From the IMG/VR virus record IMGVR_UViG_3300027708_000022, positions 62,001-126,000 of that record: a stretch of 64,000 nt of DNA. One strand, written 5' to 3'. The notes under the pieces were generated by a model. The model saw only the letters and a program-made list of their open reading frames with translations. It had not been told where the DNA came from and did no database searches. Made by a program: the position numbers and the translations under genes. Source of the stretch: a virus. Below, one piece after another: positions 5,333 through 51,220 of this stretch (positions are counted from its first letter, which is position 1; each line of letters begins with the position of its first letter).

Positions 5333-5374
5333 TTTACTTCTCCTTAGTGTGTGTAACTACTGTGTGTGTAAAGC

Positions 5375-5672
5375 GATAGTTGATTCTGTTTCCAAGTTCA
5401 ACTATCAAAACTCAGATGGTTATGCTTACGCAGCCATCAAAAAGCGATTATCGTTTGCTTTTATAGTTTTTTACTTTTAGCGACTATCTGTGTCGAGTTG
5501 TCCATTCCGTTACTTGTTGCCCAATCGAAACCTGGTCAGCCCATCAAAAGCATACTCGATCGTTTCCTGTCTTATCAATCTTATGACACCAAGTATGCTT
5601 TTGGTGGAGCTGGAGGGAATCGAACCCTCGTCTTGAACACTTTTCTCTTTACTTCATACAACTATACAACCA
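5375..5672 (-). ncRNA. ssrA: Permuted two-piece tmRNA (ssrA), tag ANDNRFLMAA
   Basis: Read leftward, the acceptor piece comes first. It has a T arm GAGGG-TTCGATT-CCCTC (5629-5613) and CCAGCTCCACCA ending at 5602. An intervening segment follows whose ends form a perfect 10-bp stem (5592-5601 with 5547-5556). Then comes the coding piece, starting GGGCTGACCAGGTTTCGATT (from 5542), which matches the canonical tmRNA 5' end and pairs with CAGCTCC. The tag frame GCA...TAA at 5458-5426 encodes ANDNRFLMAA. A 9-bp hairpin (5375-5383 with 5398-5406) closes the 3' side. The order acceptor-spacer-coding is the circular permutation of two-piece tmRNAs. With SmpB it would rescue stalled ribosomes. The ends are approximate. 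Confidence 0.93.
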
Positions 5673-5679
5673 TTATATA

Positions 5680-6360
5680 TCACTTCACGATTTTAGTCAA
5701 TGGTGAATTCGCTAAAAACGACAATAATTGGGTACGGTACATATACTTTTGCCTAACAAAGATTTGTGGTTGCCCGCCTTCTACTGCAATGGCAACAACT
5801 ATAGTATCAATTGTTTTGTTAGTTAATTCCTCAAACATTTCAGCATAAGCCGTACATTGTAGGAAATAATTTAGAATGTTTTCTTCCAACTTTTCTTTTG
5901 ATGAGGACTTATAATCTATGATTGATAACCTTTTATTCCATTCTGCAATAGTATCAACACGACCAGCAATTCTCAGCTTGTCAGAATAAAGTGGTTGTTC
6001 AATTGCATATATCTTACCGATATTTTTATCCAATTCAGGACGCAATTGAAAAAACAACTCTTTAATATTTGGCATCATATTGCGAATTTTTAAATCACTC
6101 ATTTCATTGAGCAAATATTTTTCACAAGCCAAATGCAATGCTTCACCTCGGCGTGAGGCACGACCTGATACTTTATTGGCTTCTTCTTCACCAACTCGGT
6201 TACGCCATGCATCAATAGCACCTTTGTTCATAGACCCAAGTACTGTTGTTACTGACGGGTATGCTTTGCCTGAAGGTGTATAATATAACCGACCAGATTC
6301 TGTTGTCTTTGCTTCCATCTCAAAATCTAATTCAGGTAACTTCTCATGTGTGAAAATCAT
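5680..6360 (-). CDS. PD-(D/E)XK exonuclease, RecB/MGME1-like
   Basis: 226 residues. Motifs in order: an RGEALHLACE helix, IAGRVDTIAEW (Asp), LSIIDYKSS (D-x-K catalytic pair) and a QCTAYAEMFEEL helix (Q-xxx-Y motif). This is the RecB/Cas4/MGME1-type nuclease core, used by T4-like phages in DNA processing or recombination. The N-terminal SGKAYPSVTTVLG is also typical. It lies just upstream of the tmRNA acceptor piece and its stop is eight bases before the proposed RNA. Confidence 0.88.
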   Translation of the reverse strand: MIFTHEKLPELDFEMEAKTTESGRLYYTPSGKAYPSVTTVLGSMNKGAIDAWRNRVGEEEANKVSGRASRRGEALHLACEKYLLNEMSDLKIRNMMPNIKELFFQLRPELDKNIGKIYAIEQPLYSDKLRIAGRVDTIAEWNKRLSIIDYKSSSKEKLEENILNYFLQCTAYAEMFEELTNKTIDTIVVAIAVEGGQPQIFVRQKYMYRTQLLSFLANSPLTKIVK

Positions 6361-17623: not shown

Positions 17624-19030
17624 TTAGACCTTGTATCGGTCAGACATAATGGCTTTCAACATGATAGCTTCTGGAGTAAACTCTGAAGTATCTGCTGCAA
17701 GAATTGCTTTAACGATTGAAGGACTGAACCCTGAAACCAAAGCAACACCTGATTCATCATGCTTAACAGGTACGTTATCTGATGAATTGATATTCCAAAA
17801 AACAACTTTAGGAACTTCATAGCCATTTGAGGCGAATTGACGAGCAATCATCTCCATGGCCGAATCATCATGTTCTACGCAAGCATTGAATTGCATATCA
17901 GACAGAATCAACAGCATTGATGGCATATCTTCCTGTGGTACTTTGCCTTTTACAGCAACATTTAAAATCTTCATCATGGCTTTCACCAAGTCAGTAGACA
18001 TACCCCATTCGGATCTAACCATTTGATCCATCTTCTGAATGACATTACCTTTTAGGTTAAGCAATTGCGGATCACTTGAGAATGTTAAAAAGGTGTCTTT
18101 GAAAACTCCTTTGTTCTTATCTGCAAGGTATAGACCAAGAGATACAGAAACATCCATACATGATACTGAACTGTTACGACCAGCAGGGCATGACATAGAA
18201 CCAGAAACGTCAACTAAAGGTAATACATTCGCATCACCAACAAAATTCTCTAAAGCATCCCATTGGGCTACAATGTGGTCTTTTTCGGTTTTGTTGTATG
18301 AACCGTATGCTACGCCTTTCAATACATCATAAGGGAATACTGCACCAGCATTCACCTTAACTTTTGGATCGGTACCTTTAACCAATTCAGCCACATACTC
18401 CGCAAACTTTTCAGTATTACGGTAGAATGCTTTCTTGTAACGGCTAGCCGCCAAAGAAGGCACATGACTGAAATTGATGTTATCCCAATCCTTAGCACAC
18501 ATTTGAGATTCTACCACTTTAGTCATTTCAACCAAAGACTTACGATAGAACTTAGGTGTCATGCCGAAGAACTCACGCAATTCACGAGCAACTTCACCTT
18601 TGCGGGGTGTCCATTTTGCCGCCAATCCGTTTTTAGCTCTCAGAGCATCACCAAGCAAAGTGTATGCTTGTGACTTCAATTCAGAAGTCTGGAAAACAAA
18701 TAGGTCATCCCAACGACCAACTTCAGGTACTTTCCCAAGTAGCTTCATTGCCAAATCAGGACGATTGGTTTCCAAATACTTCAGAATCTGGCGAAACAAC
18801 TCACGCTCGCCAGCGCCACCACGAACATCACGAGACCATAAGGCAACTCGCAATGCTAATTCTTCATCCTGCACCAAAGCAGAAACGAAGTCAGCTGTGA
18901 TATCTTTACCGCGGCTGGCACCGATTTTATAGAACAAATCAACTACAGCATTAGCAGTAGATTTGCGAGCTTTCATACCATTGTCGGTACGAGCTTCTTG
19001 ATTTTGAACTGCGTTTACAAATGAATTCAT
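17624..19030 (-). CDS. Ro60-like RNA-binding protein (TROVE/DUF2828-type repeats plus vWA)
   Basis: 468 residues. The N-terminal half has helical-repeat sequence with the conserved ALWSRDVRGGAGERELFRQI block of the TROVE/DUF2828 superfamily. The C-terminal half is a von Willebrand A domain: LPLVDVSGSMSC gives the MIDAS DxSxS, and SMLLILSDMQFN the later Asp. Bacterial Ro binds Y RNAs and misfolded RNAs and works with exonucleases. It lies inside the tRNA island, and two repeated hairpin elements (19053-19206) lie between the Gly tRNA and its start. Ribosome site GAGGAAG. DUF2828 and Ro proper cannot be separated without a profile search. Confidence 0.82.
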   Translation of the reverse strand: MNSFVNAVQNQEARTDNGMKARKSTANAVVDLFYKIGASRGKDITADFVSALVQDEELALRVALWSRDVRGGAGERELFRQILKYLETNRPDLAMKLLGKVPEVGRWDDLFVFQTSELKSQAYTLLGDALRAKNGLAAKWTPRKGEVARELREFFGMTPKFYRKSLVEMTKVVESQMCAKDWDNINFSHVPSLAASRYKKAFYRNTEKFAEYVAELVKGTDPKVKVNAGAVFPYDVLKGVAYGSYNKTEKDHIVAQWDALENFVGDANVLPLVDVSGSMSCPAGRNSSVSCMDVSVSLGLYLADKNKGVFKDTFLTFSSDPQLLNLKGNVIQKMDQMVRSEWGMSTDLVKAMMKILNVAVKGKVPQEDMPSMLLILSDMQFNACVEHDDSAMEMIARQFASNGYEVPKVVFWNINSSDNVPVKHDESGVALVSGFSPSIVKAILAADTSEFTPEAIMLKAIMSDRYKV

Positions 19031-19052
19031 AATATTACTTCCTCAATTTAAC

Positions 19053-19101
19053 AGGTTAACTTTTTCAAGTTGGCTTTGAATTTTATTGCTGAACTTAACC
19101 T
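19053..19101 (-). repeat. Family B inverted-repeat element B0
   Basis: Minus strand TTTAGGTTAA...TTAACCTGTTA with CAGCAA ten bases in. It shares the TTTAGG, CAGCAA and CCTGTTR landmarks with B1-B3 but has a different stem sequence (AGGTTAA/TTAACCT), i.e. compensatory change. It forms the leader of the Ro-like gene. Confidence 0.65.
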
Positions 19102-19110
19102 AAAAACAAC

Positions 19111-19206
19111 AGGATGGTTTCTACTTTTTGTTTTTCAAGTGAGAAAATCGAAACTCACTATCCGATGGCGATTTTACCCGCCGAGTATTTTTGCTGCACC
19201 CATCCT
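19111..19206 (-). repeat. Family B inverted-repeat element B1
   Basis: 96 nt bounded by AGGATGG/CCATCCT. Inside are CAGCAA, hairpin GGCG/CGCC and hairpin AGTGAG/CTCACT. Longest member, immediately downstream (transcriptionally) of tRNA-Gly(TCC). Confidence 0.75.
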
Positions 19207-19950: not shown

Positions 19951-19960
19951 ATAATACAAC

Positions 19961-20020
19961 AGGATAGATTTTAACGGTTTTGATTAGAAGTCAAATGTTT
20001 TAATTTGCTGTTACTATCCT
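19961..20020 (-). repeat. Family B element B2, tRNA-like
   Basis: 60 nt bounded by AGGATAG/CTATCCT. Carries TAACAGCAAA and a perfect 5-bp stem with a 7-nt loop CTTCTAA, identical to the Arg(TCT) anticodon loop, but lacks normal D and T arms. Lies between Trp and Ile tRNAs. Confidence 0.75.
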
Positions 20021-20454: not shown

Positions 20455-20464
20455 TCTAAACAAC

Positions 20465-20518
20465 AGGATGGAATTTTCTTTTTATCAATAAAAGTTTTTT
20501 TGTTGCTGTTACCATCCT
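20465..20518 (-). repeat. Family B element B3
   Basis: 54 nt bounded by AGGATGG/CCATCCT with TAACAGCAA and an inner CTTTT/AAAAG hairpin. Lies between Ala and Tyr tRNAs; flanks GTTTT and GTTGT match B2. Confidence 0.75.
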
Positions 20519-20616: not shown

Positions 20617-20691
20617 TGGCTCCGTGATTAGGAATCGAACCTAACTATGACAAATTAACAGTTTGCTCCCACACCTTGCGGGTCTCACGGA
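20617..20691 (-). tRNA. tRNA-Asn (GTT)
   Basis: 75 nt with CCA; loop CTGTTAA. The 5' end overlaps the last codons of the HNH gene by about seven bases. Confidence 0.92.
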
Positions 20692-21230
20692 ATTATTTTT
20701 TTCAATCTCTTTCTTATCGCTGTATCCGAAATATTTAACTTTTCAGCCACATTAATTATAGTATCATTCTTTAATAATTCTGTTAAATCTATATTATCCC
20801 AATCTACTTTAAATTTTGATTTAGAAGAACAAGATAAAGAACAATATTTATTGAACAATGGTTTATCTTTTTCACAAACAGGACATGAATCCATTTCAGT
20901 TAGTTTTTCTTGTTTATAACTTGTAAAATTTTCATCAAATTTTGTATAATCTTCAGGCATTTTTACAATATCACTATGAACCTCACTATGACAATTATGA
21001 CATAATAAAATGCATTTTCTCAATTCTTCAACAATAGATAACCAATTTTTAGGATTTGCTCGTATTGCTCCAAAAGATAATTCTTTCATGTTTGGGTCTA
21101 TATGGTGTAGGGCTAAAGCACTATCACATTTATTATATCCACATATTTGACAACAATTTCCCATAGACTCTATTATTCGTTTTTTGGTATTTTGTCGCCA
21201 TCTTTTTACTGCTTCTGAATTTTTACTCAT
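20685..21230 (-). CDS. HNH homing endonuclease in the tRNA array
   Basis: 181 residues. CCQICGYNK, ALALHHIDPNMKELSF and CILLCHNCHSEVH form an HNH/treble-clef nuclease. A second Cys pair (CPVC...CSLSC) adds a zinc module, and the C-terminal NVAEKLNISDTAIRKRL is a helix-turn-helix for site recognition. It has its own TATAAATA promoter and a good ribosome site, and sits between tRNAs, so it is a mobile free-standing gene. Its A/T-rich codon use differs from neighbours. Confidence 0.9.
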   Translation of the reverse strand: MSKNSEAVKRWRQNTKKRIIESMGNCCQICGYNKCDSALALHHIDPNMKELSFGAIRANPKNWLSIVEELRKCILLCHNCHSEVHSDIVKMPEDYTKFDENFTSYKQEKLTEMDSCPVCEKDKPLFNKYCSLSCSSKSKFKVDWDNIDLTELLKNDTIINVAEKLNISDTAIRKRLKKIIP

Positions 21231-21379: not shown

Positions 21380-21497
21380 TGGTGTCGCACTCAGGATTCG
21401 AACCTGAACCACTTCCTTTTCGATGGAATTTTGGTATGCTGTTTATATTCTTGTCAGAATACGTTAATAAGTGTGCTACCGTTTACACCAATGCGAC
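21380..21497 (-). tRNA. Interrupted tRNA with 42-nt insertion
   Basis: 118 nt from GTCGCAT to GTGCGAC-ACCA with intact acceptor, D (GTGT/GCAC) and T arms. Removing 21429-21470 leaves 76 nt with a perfect CTTCC/GGAAG anticodon stem and an 8-nt loop ATCGAAAA. The insert contains hairpin GTATTC/GAATAT. The anticodon cannot be assigned. Either a disrupted tRNA or an unusual intron-like insertion. Confidence 0.7.
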
Positions 21498-21586: not shown

Positions 21587-21661
21587 TGGCGACTCATGGG
21601 AGAATCGAACTCCCGTAACAGGATAGACAATCCCGTGTAATAACCATTATACTAATGAGCC
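21587..21661 (-). tRNA. tRNA-Asp (GTC)
   Basis: 75 nt with CCA; loop TTGTCTA. Its 5' end is the exact edge of family A element A1. Confidence 0.93.
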
Positions 21662-21737
21662 ATATTGAAATACACTATACGGGTCTACGTCCCGTGGCAC
21701 TTTAGACTTTCATTGCCTATAAATGTACTTCAATATG
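21661..21737 (-). repeat. Family A inverted-repeat element A1
   Basis: 77 nt bounded by CATATTGAARTAC/GTAYTTCAATATG (12 of 13 paired). Inside are hairpins GGCA/TGCC and ACGGG/CCCGT, giving a three-way junction. Spacer between Lys and Asp tRNAs. Confidence 0.85.
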
Positions 21738-21742
21738 ACAAC

Positions 21743-22861: not shown

Positions 22862-22954
22862 TGGCGGGCGGCAGAGGAGTCGAACCCCATCCCCATTACA
22901 GAGAACCTGGTTTTCAAGGCCAGTCGCAGGACCATCCCCGCTGCATTACCACCC
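22862..22954 (-). tRNA. tRNA-Ser (TGA)
   Basis: 93 nt class II tRNA with CCA; loop CTTGAAA. Its 5' end coincides with the edge of element A2. Confidence 0.94.
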
Positions 22955-23029
22955 ATATTGAAGTACACTCCTGATTCTGTTCGATAAAACAGAATGTTGG
23001 CTAGCCTACCTGAAATGTACTTCAATATG
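22954..23029 (-). repeat. Family A inverted-repeat element A2
   Basis: 76 nt bounded by a perfect CATATTGAAGTACA-type inverted repeat. Starts within the CCA of tRNA-Gln and ends at the first G of tRNA-Ser, so it is the whole spacer. Inner hairpin ATTCTGTT/AACAGAAT. Confidence 0.88.
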
Positions 23030-23101
23030 GCAGCGGTACTTGGGATCGAACCAAGGATAACGGATTCAAAATCCATCGTGATACCATTTCACTATACCGC
23101 A
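23028..23101 (-). tRNA. tRNA-Gln (TTG)
   Basis: 74 nt with CCA; loop TTTTGAA. First tRNA of the upstream transcript. Confidence 0.92.
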
Positions 23102-50233: not shown

Positions 50234-50339
50234 TTGATCTTACCATGGTAATCTATAGACTATCAAAAGCATACACCACCAATTATAACATCGTCAAGAG
50301 GGTTAAAGTGGTAATGTTATCAATTTATTTTAAGAATAC

Positions 50340-50594
50340 CTACAATGGTGGTTGGTGTGCAGGTGGTTGTGTGAAATTAGAAGTTATTTGAGTATTGTTG
50401 TTTTCACTAGAACTTATATCATCCATCGTTGCAAAACCCATATACGAACCAACCACAGCAGATACAAAGAGATAAAACGGCATTGCAATTGTACCAAGTG
50501 TGGGTGATTCAGATACTAAAATAAGTAACGGAAACACCAATCCAGCAAGCATTGATAGCCATGCCATTCTGCGCCTGTTTTTCCAACGATCCAT
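50340..50594 (-). CDS. Holin-like membrane protein
   Basis: 84 residues with two spans (MAWLSMLAGLVFPLLILV and IAMPFYLFVSAVVGSYMGFA), short charged N-terminus (DRWKNRRR) and a polar tail. Located right after the endolysin, so holin is the natural reading. Confidence 0.75.
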   Translation of the reverse strand: MDRWKNRRRMAWLSMLAGLVFPLLILVSESPTLGTIAMPFYLFVSAVVGSYMGFATMDDISSSENNNTQITSNFTQPPAHQPPL

Positions 50595-51220
50595 TACACA
50601 CCTAATATTCGTAATGCGTTTTCATAATATTTCTTTCTTTCTTCAAGACCATTATAACCACCATTGATGGCTCTTGTCAATCCTACTATATCACCGATAT
50701 CAGCAAATCTATTTAGATTATTAATTTTCCAGAACCAGCAGGCAGATTGTACAGCTAAATTTGGTTGTGAAACCAACTCAGGTTTAAGTAACGCTTCGTT
50801 ATCTTCAGACATGGAAAAGGATGCATAGTTATCTTTACCTGTTAACTGAATTAAACCACGACCACGATATTTGTAGCCATCACCAGAAGCTTCATCACCG
50901 TTACCTAAATCAGCACGGTTACCATATGCTCTGTTTGCAATAGCCTCTTGTTTGTTAGGCATTGCAACATAACGTGCAGCCACATCAGGAGGAAATCGAG
51001 TTGGCCATAGTCTTGTCAATGTTTCAGCACGATAATTCAAATTCTCTTCTAGTACCGTAAACTGACCAGACTCATGTGAACATTGTGCAATAAAGGCAGC
51101 AATGCGTAATGGTGTGGTTATATCGTAATTTGGCAATACCGACAACAGAGCTTCATGCCATTGAGCAACATAGTGGTTATTTGGAATCATTTGTTGCAAT
51201 TGTTCCCGTGATAAATCCAT
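50594..51220 (-). CDS. Endolysin, glycoside hydrolase family 19
   Basis: 208 residues from the ATG at 51220. FIAQCSHESGQFTVLEENLN contains the catalytic HES, and YKYRGRGLIQLTGKDNY the GH19 substrate loop; YGNRADLGNGDEASGDG holds the second acidic residue region. No signal peptide, so it needs the holin. Cleaves peptidoglycan at lysis. Confidence 0.94.
   Translation of the reverse strand: MDLSREQLQQMIPNNHYVAQWHEALLSVLPNYDITTPLRIAAFIAQCSHESGQFTVLEENLNYRAETLTRLWPTRFPPDVAARYVAMPNKQEAIANRAYGNRADLGNGDEASGDGYKYRGRGLIQLTGKDNYASFSMSEDNEALLKPELVSQPNLAVQSACWFWKINNLNRFADIGDIVGLTRAINGGYNGLEERKKYYENALRILGV

Follow-up and report, generated by a model that had tools for sequence, protein, structure and literature searches.

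A tRNA-shaped RNA in a phage tRNA array carries a stem element that recurs before the start codon of a predicted Ro60-like gene

The window analysed here, a 64,000-nt stretch of a 162-kb viral record (IMG/VR IMGVR_UViG_3300027708_000022), contains within the record's tRNA array a gene for a 118-nt tRNA-like RNA, hereafter X, on the minus strand at 21380..21497 (5' end at 21497, CCA encoded at 21380-21382). X folds with an acceptor stem (5' strand GTCGCAT at 21491..21497, 3' strand GTGCGAC at 21384-21390), a D arm (GTGT/GCAC; 21473..21488) and a T arm (TCAGG-TTCGAAT-CCTGA; 21391..21407), all on the minus strand, confirming the 118-nt length and the three intact arms described in an earlier sequence-only reading of this DNA. 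That reading had also noted a hairpin in the extra segment, and the fold bears this out: the stem element at 21432..21466 (-), which we call the Ro-linked stem, comprises a hairpin of 7 bp with a GACA tetraloop (21445-21462) and a CAGCA strand at 21437-21441. In the unspliced fold, the place of the anticodon arm is taken by a TTCC-ATCGAAAA-GGAA hairpin with an 8-nt loop (21413..21428, -). The minimum free energy of X is -32.1 kcal/mol (z -3.6), a value equalled by 1 of 200 shuffled sequences. On the same strand are a gene for a 468-aa DUF2828/DUF7788 protein (Pfam; 17624..19030), the proposed partner of X, and, between tRNA-Asn and tRNA-Met, a 181-aa ORF at 20685-21230 that has no Pfam match and is HNH-like by sequence reading; L003, a related IMG/VR locus, lacks this ORF, and tRNA-Asn and tRNA-Met adjoin there. 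A tRNA-Ser(UGA) at about 22866-22953 (-) is missed by ARAGORN and gives a weak match to the Rfam tRNA-Sec model.

X is not called by ARAGORN at default settings and is not matched by the Rfam tRNA model (RF00005), even at E<=5. Taking out 21429-21470 leaves 76 nt with a CTTCC/GGAAG stem and an 8-nt loop, as the sequence-only reading had calculated, and this shortened form is called by ARAGORN as a tRNA of unknown isotype, 'cgaa'. X itself has neither the 7-nt anticodon loop, its loop being 8 nt after excision, nor the tRNA-model recognition of a canonical tRNA. The boundary of the insert in the window copy is ambiguous by a few nt. ARAGORN in intron mode proposed a Phe(AAA) tRNA with a 45-nt intron in X, a solution that we rejected for its poor fold and lack of support from relatives. 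We agree with the sequence-only reading that a group I intron, which has a catalytic core and spans over ~200 nt, would not fit into the 42-nt segment, and no Rfam intron family matched it. By similarity, no convincing parent of the exon parts of X was found among the 1898 distinct tRNAs of the loci.

The 117-118-nt form of X is whole in L002, L003 and L004, three near relatives from IMG/VR. None of the 42 insert positions is substituted between the window and L003 or L004 (0/42), and the 3' half of X is likewise unchanged, while the neighbouring tRNA-Thr differs at 3 and 18 of 74 nt (L003 and L004, respectively) and tRNA-Met at 6 of 77; the Lys-Asp spacer of L004 is largely different from that of the window. 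L003 alone is too close to the window to prove selection. Since the insert and the 3' half are unchanged where the adjoining tRNAs diverge, a recent killing insertion is disfavoured, and the earlier suggestion that the insertion had killed the tRNA is further weakened by the long form kept in L002-L004 and by a diverged family, described below, that keeps its counted stems through compensatory change. Long forms in relatives are one half of the finding that the sequence-only reading had named as speaking against itself. It had also advised looking for an uninterrupted allele in related phages; none turned up in the array stretches examined, and in these the near relatives L086-L089 lack the entire gene. 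A degenerate pattern of X matched 95 stretches in IMG/VR, of which only the window's near relatives and L025/L206 stand in a tRNA context. A nucleotide search with X in cultivated phages gave short partial matches only, and a genome-contig scan with one 24-mer gave no match.

Using a structural descriptor (acceptor, D arm, T arm, CCA and a long middle) that is blind to the insert sequence, we identified a diverged relative of X at L025:2353-2471. A covariance model built from these two sequences (R1) found further members in L033, L022, L260, L124, L119, L121, L125, L122 and L146, and the family ranges from 113 to 129 nt across related IMG/VR phages and cultivated phages; X, itself part of the model, scores 137.9 bits. 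When the acceptor, D, insert and inner T pairs were counted in a 12-member alignment (excluding the anticodon arm, a region that MAFFT misaligns), 98.7% of the cells were paired, with 46 two-sided changes compared with 15.4 in shuffled alignments and a covariation of 0.561 compared with 0.164. Two-sided changes occur in 5 of 7 acceptor pairs and 2 of 4 D-arm pairs, and 3 of 6 pairs of the Ro-linked stem covary.

Most members have an ordinary anticodon arm with a 7-nt loop (GUG, GUA, GUU or GUC) that lies wholly downstream of the insert, which places the extra arm between the D and anticodon arms. Together with the local TTCC-ATCGAAAA-GGAA hairpin of the unspliced fold, this speaks against the earlier claim of an anticodon stem split by the segment. 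In S13 copy 1 and Aeh1 copy 3, from two of the cultivated phages below, the insert seemingly falls within the anticodon loop. With the insert removed, ARAGORN recognises a tRNA in all but one of 10 members tested (9 of 10), and Asn, Asp, His and Tyr are among the isotypes called. Two members have no anticodon arm (L121:6403-6502 and L125:6068-6164), retaining CCA and the acceptor, D and T arms with the Ro-linked stem in the anticodon arm's place, and a CCA-ended RNA of L159 near 5636-5695 seemingly has only an acceptor-like stem around the element. One group of X-like members has an apparent T-stem bulge.

The core of the insert (AUYCUG...AGRAU-N4-CAGCA) and an element that brackets segments of the tRNA arrays are circular permutations of one RNA element: the bracket element UUUUAGGAUNNGUNCAGCAAA ... 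NNAUCCUGUUG is the insert helix opened at its other end, with examples in the window's tRNA array at 19959..20020 and 20463..20518 (both -). Counting by a strict pattern (a loose regular expression was rejected, with 683 matches against 198 in shuffled sequence), we found 357 bracket elements in 2.48 Mb of family loci, compared with 3 after shuffling and 2 in 0.76 Mb of other viral DNA. Nearly all are on the strand of the nearest tRNA (339 of 341), and 240 of 343 stand no more than 300 nt from a tRNA, in zones that together account for 30% of locus DNA. In a sample of 24 elements, covariation of the bracket helix was 0.730 compared with 0.150; as the strict pattern fixes part of this helix, the slide and shuffle controls weigh more than the percentage paired. 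A model built from bracket elements of other loci only, with the halves joined in insert order (R2), finds the window insert at 19.3 bits as rank 2 in 64 kb, at a modest E-value of 0.011 per 64 kb; rank 1 falls where two bracket elements adjoin. Of the 10 best R2 matches in 824 kb, 8 are X-like hairpins. It is this recovery of X-like inserts by a model trained on brackets that identifies the two as one element with two connectivities. We found no description of the element in the literature searched, a search that left most subscription journals and preprints outside its scope. A second bracket type, CCATATTGAAGTACA...TGTACTTCAATATGG, which encloses an RNA of 50-100 nt, is present in the window at 21659-21740 and 22953-23030 and in several copies in L025.

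What the brackets enclose varies. A descriptor for circularly permuted tRNAs that is blind to the stem element returned 15 distinct candidates and none in shuffled sequence, and all 15 are bracketed by the element; the 15 include several near duplicates, and two loci (L060 and L066) show an overlap between the bracket and the predicted anticodon arm. These RNAs (L043:9861-9978, L038:9862-9980, L026:6043-6162, L159:5822-5941 and others) fold as full tRNAs with closed acceptors, the acceptor linkers being 3-6 nt and resembling hairpin caps (UUCG in L043). Other elements enclose a tRNA body in normal order or no tRNA at all, and 202 of 260 distinct elements have no internal T arm; in some RNAs, such as L121:6509, the tRNA is normally ordered and has its acceptor closed by the stem. 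In YrlA RNAs, the ends form a protein-binding stem and the body mimics a tRNA (PMC8394870). No record scored above the cut-off of the Rfam YrlA family RF02553 (best 39.1 bits, cut-off 69), and X itself was not listed; the best sub-threshold matches include permuted elements of L043, L028, L121, L124 and L026, which we regard as supporting and not as proof, given that controls also match below threshold.

Two bracket elements also lie upstream of the DUF2828 gene, one in its leader at 19051..19101 (AGGUUAAGUUCAGCAA...UUAACCUGUU) and the second at 19109..19206 (AGGAUGGGUGCAGCAA...CCAUCCUGUUG), both on the minus strand. The AlphaFold model of the DUF2828 protein is middling (mean pLDDT 72.3, pTM 0.67), and its structural matches are the TROVE domain 9KOP (Z 17.3), the Ro60 of Thermus phage phiLo (15.4), Ro-RNA complexes (14.3) and Deinococcus Rsr (11.3), compared with 9.4 and below for vWA-only proteins. 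The match to Ro60/TROVE structures spans most of the model's length. A PDB sequence search with the protein gave no match, where the fold comparison did; its identity to phiLo Ro60 is 17%. As modelled, the protein is a phage Ro60/TROVE-like protein, predicted to bind RNA. TROVE proteins have been described in jumbo phages, and a 'tRNA-like partner' in cellular organisms (PMC7824862). DUF2828 matches occur in 675 phage-collection records, and for the hundreds of phage records with predicted Ro-family proteins the element is a concrete candidate cognate RNA.

Of 51 distinct DUF2828 genes, 45 are preceded by a bracket element at no more than 250 nt, compared with 13 of 508 other ORFs, and the median distance from element to start codon of the DUF2828 genes is 20 nt. 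A binding site just before a protein's own start codon is a common sign of autoregulation, and we propose from this position that the Ro-like protein may regulate its own gene through the leader element, although the leader elements could bind another factor.

R1 also finds X-like RNAs in the cultivated Synechococcus phage BUCT-ZZ01, Cronobacter phage S13, Vibrio phage nt-1 and Aeromonas phage Aeh1, and in BUCT-ZZ01 and S13 they stand in tandem a little downstream of the Ro-like gene. The X-like genes of nt-1 are at 99441-99555, 101471-101594 and 101868-101990. Those of Aeh1 and S13, X-family members by R1 and by eye, are annotated as odd-length tRNAs (tRNA-Val of 122 nt in Aeh1; tRNA-Ser of 121 nt and tRNA-OTHER of 113 nt in S13), in records that mention neither the stem nor the link to a Ro-like gene; odd-length phage 'tRNAs' in public records may thus be something other than tRNAs. 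In a small and non-random sample of phages, R1 matched 5 of 10 DUF7788 carriers, and R1 and R2 matched 0 of 4 tRNA-rich phages lacking DUF7788. At the thresholds used, no X-like RNA was found in the Ro-like carriers Munch, DLP_6 and Prevotella phage Lak-A1 (MK250015.1; DUF7788 protein at 50301-50852, E 1.2e-9). Two weak R2 matches in Lak-A1, outside a tRNA context, were judged to be chance.

We consider X to be probably a stable, CCA-ended, tRNA-shaped non-coding RNA whose extra stem is a proposed Ro-binding site, that is, a component of a phage Ro-RNP and not a broken tRNA. X would be transcribed together with the tRNA array, its ends probably being made like tRNA ends, and the DUF2828 Ro-like protein would bind the extra stem and the CAGCA strand, holding X as a tRNA-mimicking RNP. 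In relatives, the element closes Y-RNA-like RNAs with bodies that include whole permuted tRNAs, and before the Ro-like start codon it would allow the protein to regulate its own mRNA. That anticodon-less members keep the Ro-linked stem counts in favour of this Ro-RNP reading. Counting against it are the open CCA-bearing tRNA ends of X, where YrlA ends form the Ro stem; the tRNAs that ARAGORN finds after excision, mostly with 7-nt loops, which fit an intron too; and the Ro-like carriers without an X-like RNA, the middling AlphaFold model and the modest R2 E-value. The analysis supplies a predicted autoregulatory leader and a series of tRNA mimics (with an internal stem, permuted and anticodon-less), which are directly testable.

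The most likely purpose of X, as judged from work on YrlA, would be that of a decoy or guide that soaks up or steers tRNA-targeting enzymes, for example anticodon nucleases; YrlA as a competitive inhibitor for an anticodon nuclease was an idea raised in 2020 (PMC7790460). Alternatively, the RNAs may be presented to a nuclease in the fashion of YrlA. If these RNAs guard against tRNA-cutting defences, they would be part of the reason for the large tRNA arrays of such phages.

The main rival to the Ro-RNP reading is excision, in which the segment would be a small intron of a new type and the stem with CAGCA a splicing motif, self-acting or served by an enzyme, that joins the tRNA halves where genes are permuted, ordinary tRNAs being the outcome. 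A small 'intron-like' element had been put forward in the sequence-only reading, and it is a possible one: excision restores an ARAGORN tRNA in 9 of 10 members, the D-arm/anticodon-arm junction carries the motif in both X-like and permuted genes with a site that is constant in most, and conserved 'enigmatic' tRNA introns are known in Lak phages (PMC6784885). We nevertheless judge an intron unlikely, given the 202 of 260 distinct elements with no internal T arm, the many elements in the Ro-like gene's leader, the existence of anticodon-less members and the stem at the acceptor of L121:6509, where excision would remove the whole tRNA. The window copy would yield an 8-nt loop and several members a bulged T stem, the short acceptor linkers of the permuted RNAs look like hairpin caps, and Lak-A1 has no R1 match. 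Neither RtcB nor tRNA_int_endo (PF01974) was found in any of 25 records, and Rnl1 in 1 of 25, which also argues against a BHB-type intron served by a phage splicing endonuclease; the missing splicing genes are not decisive, as the host could supply the enzymes. A related possibility, in our estimate quite unlikely, is that the stem and CAGCA form a new splicing or circularising motif through which tRNAs are made from interrupted and permuted genes, the Ro-like protein acting in their assembly. If true, such a way of maturing tRNAs would, to our knowledge, be without precedent in bacterial viruses.

It is very unlikely that X is the decayed form of a tRNA or X-like RNA that once worked and has lost its function in this phage: only in the window copy is there an 8-nt loop and no isotype to be assigned, and by ARAGORN all 20 amino acids are served by the other tRNA genes, but the stems, CCA and CAGCA of X are all intact, and its insert and 3' half carry no substitution in L003 and L004 beside the substituted tRNA-Thr and tRNA-Met. 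Just as improbable is an RNA-processing or antitermination signal of the tRNA array reused incidentally inside X, which would suit the crowding of elements around tRNAs but leaves unexplained their placement at Ro-like start codons, the enclosed permuted tRNAs and the hairpin within tRNAs.

Among known systems, X resembles YrlA (RF02553) with Rsr/Ro60 in joining a tRNA-like body (D, T and acceptor arms) to a Ro-binding stem, the binding by X being predicted, and in having a gene for a modelled Ro-family protein in the same genome; its permuted relatives share the YrlA topology, with a closed acceptor and ends in the stem. Unlike YrlA, X pairs its ends as a CCA acceptor and has the stem internally (in the relatives' bracket elements the stem does pair the ends), the stem sequence of its family differs (AUYCUGUU/AGRAU-N4-CAGCA), no match reaches the Rfam gathering score, most members have full anticodon arms, and each phage has many elements, one of them in the Ro-like leader. 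X is most likely Y-RNA-like in its working, by analogy, and we do not class it as a YrlA. The Ro60 of phage phiLo (PDB 9L5Y) has the fold predicted for the window's DUF2828 protein, but no cognate RNA element is described for phage Ro60 in the literature searched. Permuted tRNAs of archaea and algae have the 3' half ahead of the 5' half, as do the permuted relatives of X; the phage RNAs differ in that the break falls where the D arm meets the anticodon arm, the motif is a new one, the acceptor linkers are very short and no splicing endonuclease gene was found. The nearest published oddity is the set of tRNA introns in Lak megaphages, where a conserved segment lengthens tRNA genes (PMC6784885). 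These too are phage tRNA genes with a conserved extra segment, and Lak-A1 encodes a DUF7788 protein, but R1 has no match there, and insertion site and sequence are not comparable here.

Several other unusual RNAs were observed. The phage tmRNA at window 5369-5714 (-) matches the Rfam permuted tmRNA (118.9 bits) and beta tmRNA (92.4 bits) models over the same stretch, indicating a two-piece (split) form. A second class of CCA-ended tRNA-like RNAs, of 102-110 nt (L025:5921-6030, L010:9422-9524 and L050:19330-19431), has long odd anticodon and variable regions and lacks the Ro-linked stem. We also found tRNA-Ile(UAU) genes whose variable arm is class-II-like and longer than usual by a wide margin (L038:2748-2842, L121:7390-7484, L124:6933-7025 and others), and, in related phages, tRNAs with a CUA anticodon, called as Pyl, that are likely amber suppressors (L105:2618, L106:5961, L121:10494 and L125:10495).
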